From: Terriglobia bacterium
GTDB taxonomy: Bacteria; Acidobacteriota; Terriglobia; Bryobacterales; Bryobacteraceae
Assembly (NCBI GenBank): GCA_003175985.1
Contig: PSRJ01000153.1
Span: 1-45,438 of the forward strand
Direction: 5' to 3'
DNA length: 45,438 nt
Shown piece by piece: positions 40,367 to 40,999 of the stretch (position 1 is the first letter of the stretch; each line of letters opens with the position of its first letter). The notes below the pieces were generated by a model. That model saw nothing but the letters and a program-made list of their open reading frames with translations, was not told the origin of the DNA and searched no databases. Both the position numbers and the translations under genes were made by a program.

Positions 40367-40427
40367 GCGGGTAATCCTATATTTGACCACGGAATGAAAA
40401 GGGGGGCGTGCGGCTGGAGATGCGCAT

Positions 40428-40588
40428 TCATACCCCACTCAGCAACAGTTTCGTTGGCCACCTCTGGCGGCCGTGGAAAACGGCGATCAGCTCCAAGCGG
40501 TCGCTTCGGACCCGGTAGGGAATGATGTGATGTAGTTGCGTAGGTGCTCAAGGTGGCGTATCGCCCGAGGCGACCAGACAATCTTCAT
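40428..40588 (-). pseudogene. ParE/RelE-type toxin remnant with internal deletion
   Basis: An ATG at 40588 overlaps the antitoxin stop (ATGA) and begins MKIVWSPRAIRHLEHLRNYI, a normal ParE/RelE N-terminus. That frame soon stops. In a neighbouring frame, starting at about 40545, sequence reads HHIIPYRVRSDRLELIAVFH then GRQRWP and ends at TGA 40428-40430, exactly a ParE C-terminus. A normal ParE has about 50 more residues between these parts. The gene has therefore lost its middle (about 150 bases) and is out of frame across the junction, where the direct repeat ACATC occurs twice. The toxin should be inactive. The antitoxin remains. Confidence 0.88.
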
Positions 40589-40842
40589 TTCGGGGCTTTG
40601 GTCTCACCGGGCTTGCCCCACGTTTTCAGCCATTGTTCGACCCTTTCGTGGGTGATGCCCTTCCCGGCATCGAGTTCCGCAACGCCAGCTTGGAGCTCGC
40701 CGAGCTGCCATTCTTCGGATTCGACAAAGGCGGCGATTGCCTCGGCCGCGAGAAACGATTTCGAGCGTCTCGAACGCTTTGCGAGGGCATCAAGACGCCT
40801 CTTAGTTTCCCGGTCTAAGCGGATGGAGAGGGTCTCAGTCAT
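40585..40842 (-). CDS. Ribbon-helix-helix (CopG/ParD-like) antitoxin
   Basis: This 85-aa protein starts at ATG 40842 (MTETLSIRLDRETKRRLDAL). It has the N-terminal ribbon-helix-helix fold of CopG/ParD-type antitoxins (SIRLDRETKRRLDALAKRSR, then SKSFLAAEAI). An acidic helical C-terminus follows, which would bind the toxin (ESEEWQLGELQAGVAELDAG). Its stop overlaps the toxin start by 4 bases, the usual arrangement. The toxin is disrupted, so this may be a solitary antitoxin, perhaps still a DNA-binding repressor or one that neutralises related toxins. Confidence 0.88.
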   Translation of the reverse strand: MTETLSIRLDRETKRRLDALAKRSRRSKSFLAAEAIAAFVESEEWQLGELQAGVAELDAGKGITHERVEQWLKTWGKPGETKAPK

Positions 40843-40999
40843 GACTTGTGCTCGCGTGTATACATGTTCGCACAACATCCTGCCGAACCGCCCTCGCCAA
40901 TAGAACATGGCCCTAACCCTTCGAAGATCTGAGTTTCTTGTTATCTTGGACTACGCGCTGCGAACGGCTCGTCGCGGCCAGAGCTTGGGAGATGACTTT

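Follow-up and report, generated by a model that had tools for sequence, protein, structure and literature searches.

When the toxin half of a toxin-antitoxin pair is broken and the antitoxin stays whole, is the survivor kept for a task of its own, or is it what remains part of the way through the loss of the pair? The question is raised by a locus in a genome of the Bryobacteraceae (contig PSRJ01000153.1), singled out in a prediction made from the sequence alone; the window, as we call the whole stretch of DNA analysed, is 45,438 nucleotides long. The explanation that we favour, with high confidence, is that the locus belongs to the ParDE kind of chromosomal type II modules and that an internal deletion of 138-139 nt recently destroyed its toxin. 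Without its toxin, such a module would confer no addiction and should drift to loss. The features of the locus are listed in Table 1.

Table 1. Features of the toxin-antitoxin locus, in window positions.
Feature	Position	Strand	Basis
Segment with the whole module, flanked by genus-conserved stretches that are not adjacent in the genus	40396..40987		Limits of DNA homology
C-terminal toxin remnant, residues ~68-94, in a different frame	40446..40526	minus	Profile of relatives' toxins
Deletion junction, tandem ACATC ACATC	40524..40533	minus	Gap placed by alignment with intact relatives
N-terminal toxin remnant, residues 1-20	40529..40588	minus	Profile of relatives' toxins
Antitoxin, 85 residues, ribbon-helix-helix (CopG/ParD-like), intact	40588..40842	minus	RHH_1 and profile of relatives
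Operator-like site TTGTGC-N6-GTATAC-N6-GCACAA, symmetric, intact	40846..40875	minus	Conserved before relatives' antitoxins

Two remnants of a ParE-type toxin

On the minus strand, an ATG overlapping the stop of the antitoxin opens a frame that reads MKIVWSPRAIRHLEHLRNYI... and ends after 33 codons at a stop at 40487-40489; another frame reads IIPYRVRSDRLELIAVFHGRQRWPTKL... and is closed by a stop at 40428-40430. A profile built from the intact toxins of relatives (25 sequences, window left out, members chosen by a text rule, Z=1000) matched two pieces separately and in toxin order, the N-terminal piece at model positions 1-22 (iE 2.2e-6) and the C-terminal piece at positions 66-94 (iE 1.1e-12). 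Both were found at the same places when a nine-sequence profile was run over the whole 7.44-Mb genome (E 7.6e-4 and 2.4e-11, respectively). The original prediction had named a profile search as the check on chance matches, and this check, run with the relatives' toxins, together with the whole-genome search rules out that the pieces are such matches. Its description of ParE-like ends lying in two frames, with the middle gone, is likewise borne out by the profile matches and by alignment with intact relatives. Pfam recognised the N-terminal piece weakly (ParE_toxin, E 0.092, 13.8 bits against a cut-off of 23) and gave no match for the C-terminal piece. While two intact relatives score 62.2 and 66.6 bits against the ParE family profile, the window holds two remnants only and not a full-length ParE fold of about 90-95 residues with a profile score above the cut-off. 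These comparisons make the window copy a ParE pseudogene, in the RelE/ParE superfamily.

What the remnants lack can be read from the predicted model of one relative's toxin (mean pLDDT 83.8), whose elements are E2-5, H7-21, H25-44, E58-61, E67-74 and E77-80. Residues 21-66 of this model comprise the end of helix 1, the entire helix 2 and one strand. With most of the fold gone and a stop reached after so few codons, we infer that the window toxin is dead. The solved folds closest to the relative's toxin were ParE chains, with RelE chains ranking lower, which places the intact relative in the ParE fold; in NCBIfam, by contrast, an intact relative falls under RelE_StbE (30.1 bits against a cut-off of 27.9). 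The nearest solved sequence to an intact relative's toxin was ParE of the PaaA2-ParE2 complex (5cw7). This complex and the ParDE of P. aeruginosa (6xrw) are among the closest solved sequences or folds to the relatives' intact toxin, at about 24-30% identity over the fold match, and unlike the window copy their toxins are intact.

An internal deletion with a tandem repeat at its junction

Aligned with seven intact relatives, the window toxin has a single gap, a net loss of 138-139 nt or 46-47 residues that shifts the frame; about 50 missing residues had been predicted. The deletion alignment held 39 distinct loci of 70, namely those with at least 55% identity that reached query residue 84, with identical copies merged and the others dropped. 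The decamer ACATCACATC, which forms the junction, has a single occurrence in the window. Among the intact relatives, eight of 28 have ACAT on both sides of the lost stretch, and three (L017, L021 and L061) have TACATC on both sides. Slippage or a microhomology deletion had been suggested for this junction. Short repeats at the edges in some relatives agree with that suggestion, but plain repeat collapse fails as an explanation because it leaves one ACATC, whereas the window has two in tandem. The deletion would have arisen between a pair of TACATC-like stretches by one of two routes: a single event that rejoined the ends imprecisely, or a 144-nt collapse that kept the frame, with a tandem duplication of 5 nt after it. 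The ancestral sequence at the junction is deduced from relatives whose antitoxins are no more than 78% identical, a same-species copy with an intact toxin not having been found.

A fault of assembly or binning, with the toxin of the organism itself intact, seems to us very unlikely. The genome consists of 405 contigs and is 92.21% complete, and the relatives are mostly metagenome assemblies, all of which leaves room for such a fault. However, the lesion consists of a single clean gap inside the gene, and in the rest of the genome no match to the lost middle was found below E 0.6, apart from a separate ParE-like gene on contig 120. Loss between repeats of 5-6 nt is, moreover, unusual as a short-read assembly error.

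The antitoxin and its putative operator

The antitoxin lies upstream of the toxin, and the stop of the one and the start of the other overlap as ATGA, an offset that is identical in most relatives. Its N-terminal part is a ribbon-helix-helix DNA-binding domain by Pfam RHH_1 (27.1 bits, cut-off 20.5); the RelB-like model of NCBIfam reached 40.2 bits, below its cut-off of 50. A profile of the relatives' antitoxins, with the window excluded, gave a score of 147.5, and full-length relatives within the Bryobacteraceae are up to 78% identical. The complete ribbon-helix-helix antitoxin with an ATGA overlap that had been claimed for this place is thus confirmed by the RHH_1 score, the full-length relatives and the reading frames. 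Complete, and with its partner toxin disabled, the window antitoxin is an orphan from a degraded pair.

The operator-like site is separated from the antitoxin ATG by 3 nt. Versions of it precede the antitoxin in most relatives, often with equal spacing. In a weight matrix from 27 of the 28 intact relatives (one has no upstream sequence) the window site ranks fifth of 28, a rank that is not fully independent, as the matrix sites were picked by a consensus drawn up with the window in view. Since the site is intact, binding of the antitoxin to its own putative operator, and hence self-repression, is likely, which lends indirect support to the original prediction that the leftover protein may act as a repressor. 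The antitoxin would probably still be made, bind the symmetric site before its own start via the ribbon-helix-helix domain and repress itself, although this repression may be weaker than that by a complex with toxin. Regulation in trans through other operators is unsupported: the relaxed operator pattern has one zero-mismatch site in the genome, and allowing at most two mismatches gave 7 forward and 7 reverse matches, close to the level of the control (15 and 3).

Genomic surroundings of the module

The downstream neighbour on the same strand (start 40366) is, as we take it from its sequence, an acyl-CoA dehydrogenase. The collection has five genomes of the genus, the window's included, and in three of the others this gene is 86-87% identical. 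On the dehydrogenase side, DNA homology stops at 40395 (L072), 40391 (L074), 40355 (L073) and 40354 (L076). The gene on the other side of the module is 86% and 83% identical in two genus genomes, with homology from 40988 (L119 and L120), and the two flanking genes sit on different contigs in the genus relatives. Conserved DNA thus ends close to the module on both sides and the flanking genes are not neighbours elsewhere, so that the module marks a point of rearrangement or insertion.

No close relative of the antitoxin was found in the four other genus genomes, two of which gave no match and two a match at 34-35% identity. The intact pair at the same place in relatives, for which the original prediction had advised a search, was therefore not found, and an ancestral place of the pair in the genus is ruled out by the lack of a close antitoxin and by the flanks lying on different contigs.

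The surroundings also bear on whether the antitoxin was retained as a regulator whose promoter now drives the dehydrogenase as well. This gene begins about 60 nt past the end of the remnant frame, on the same strand, with no terminator-like site found between the two on the minus strand, and the operator-like site is intact. Yet it has a short leader of its own before its start (TCAAATA...), seen by eye in three module-free genus relatives too, and the genome contains no second perfect operator. Because the leader also occurs without the module, a takeover of the dehydrogenase by the antitoxin promoter is disfavoured, and we assign it a very low probability.

Intact and broken pairs among relatives

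Antitoxin matches at E ≤1e-3 are present in 72 of 200 Bryobacteraceae genomes, and a scan of the contig collection returned 37 loci, with titles mostly of Bryobacterales, Bryobacteraceae or Acidobacteria. Fifty loci, the window included, were classified by hand, with the caveat that a draft genome may show frame shifts that stem from sequencing errors: both genes are intact at 27, the antitoxin only at 12, the toxin only at three, both are broken at seven, and one lies at a contig edge. The expectation that intact pairs would occur among relatives is met by the 27. An intact antitoxin accompanies a broken toxin in G000, G054, G122, G108, G106, G084, G162, G077, G041, G177, G006 and G188 (the last below 54% identity), and a toxin that is intact or nearly so accompanies a broken or absent antitoxin in G141, G097 and G193 (the last without the toxin's first residues). 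There is a modest surplus of antitoxin-only over toxin-only loci, with two-sided binomial values of 0.035 (12 to 3), 0.057 (11 to 3), 0.013 (12 to 2) and 0.022 (11 to 2); the comparison is not fully symmetric, since the best 30 loci of the toxin-seeded list were examined. The lesions of the toxin vary by locus, from deletion, insertion and frame shifts to truncation and absence, and because they differ the toxin must have been lost repeatedly.

Several of these loci have features of their own. L103 (G141) and L107 (G097; the toxin DNA is the same in L066) have full-length toxin frames and antitoxins without the ribbon-helix-helix part, which remain in frame from about residue 47-54 up to residue 85. 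L107 also has a weak match to antitoxin residues 32-49 on the other strand, as a small inversion might leave. In L024 (G108) about 33 residues of the toxin frame match, after which it runs on into an unrelated tail, seemingly fused by rearrangement. In L063 and L142 (G177) the antitoxin relative is complete and 56-57% identical; a toxin remnant was not found there, nor is an operator recognisable ahead of the antitoxin start. This is perhaps an older solitary antitoxin.

Age of the toxin loss and survival of the antitoxin

In leave-one-out comparisons among the intact toxins (28, those passing our frame rule), the N-terminal piece ranked ninth and the C-terminal piece thirteenth of 29. Median pN was 0.165 between the remnant and intact relatives, compared with 0.195 among the intact toxins themselves. 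Because the remnants are conserved like the same segments of intact toxins, the toxin loss looks recent relative to the divergences among relatives, and to these only, as pS is near saturation (~0.73-0.75) and gives no synonymous-rate date. For the antitoxin, median pN/pS was 0.23 against the antitoxins of intact relatives and 0.27 among those antitoxins. As the toxin loss looks recent, this conservation mostly predates it; the survival of the antitoxin is thus no evidence of a new role, and no special explanation is needed.

A role of this kind had been part of the original prediction, in which the leftover antitoxin may be an anti-addiction factor, that is, one kept by selection because it neutralises related toxins of plasmids or phages. 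Its completeness, the resemblance of its pN/pS to that among intact relatives and the excess of antitoxin-only loci fit such a role, and the idea is put forward for orphan antitoxins generally in a passage of PMC7354431. However, the conservation appears mostly older than the loss, and close targets are lacking: 648 plasmid records match the antitoxin, all below 60% identity (the best at 44% among the matches listed), one phage record matches at 46% identity over 76% of the antitoxin query, and a search of viral contigs for the antitoxin confirmed none. Contig 120 carries the one further full-length ParE-like toxin that was found in this genome, and it is paired with an antitoxin of its own (30% identical). 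With no close plasmid, phage or viral counterpart, and with a pseudogene so fresh that the survival of its antitoxin implies no selection, we consider anti-addiction highly improbable here. Cross-neutralisation of other toxins by the orphan antitoxin is not supported by these sequence searches, in which nothing points to such a toxin.

Discussion

A broken toxin beside an intact antitoxin and control site marks a stage that is ordinary for such pairs as they decay. One likeness comes from Caulobacter crescentus, a bacterium of a different phylum from the window's. Its parDE loci include one with a parE pseudogene and a ParD without an apparent mate, according to the part of PMC7354431 that treats them, and the pseudogene is named parE2 in an excerpt of PMC5634604. 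There too a ParE-type pseudogene stands beside a kept antitoxin; the likeness concerns pseudogene status alone, whereas the window lesion is a frame-shifting internal deletion. For the Klebsiella pneumoniae complex, PMC7354431 counts as many as 2253 orphan antitoxins, of which a large share probably derive from intact systems by degradation. These are survey counts and do not concern the present subfamily. Decay of chromosomal pairs through deletion and nonsense mutation is described in a section of PMC7167474. These sources already describe how chromosomal pairs decay, antitoxins left as orphans and a parE pseudogene with its antitoxin, and the window alone adds little to them.

A wider reading would be that the antitoxin half systematically outlives the toxin in these Acidobacteria, the survivor with its operator becoming a stand-alone regulator or immunity factor. 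We find this quite unlikely; if it were true, the window would show the switch shortly after the death of the toxin. As a case of toxin-first decay of a type II module, which is the explanation we prefer, the locus is a clean example: its lesion and operator-like site can be set beside numerous relatives, some intact and some broken, so that the order of decay can be counted within one subfamily.
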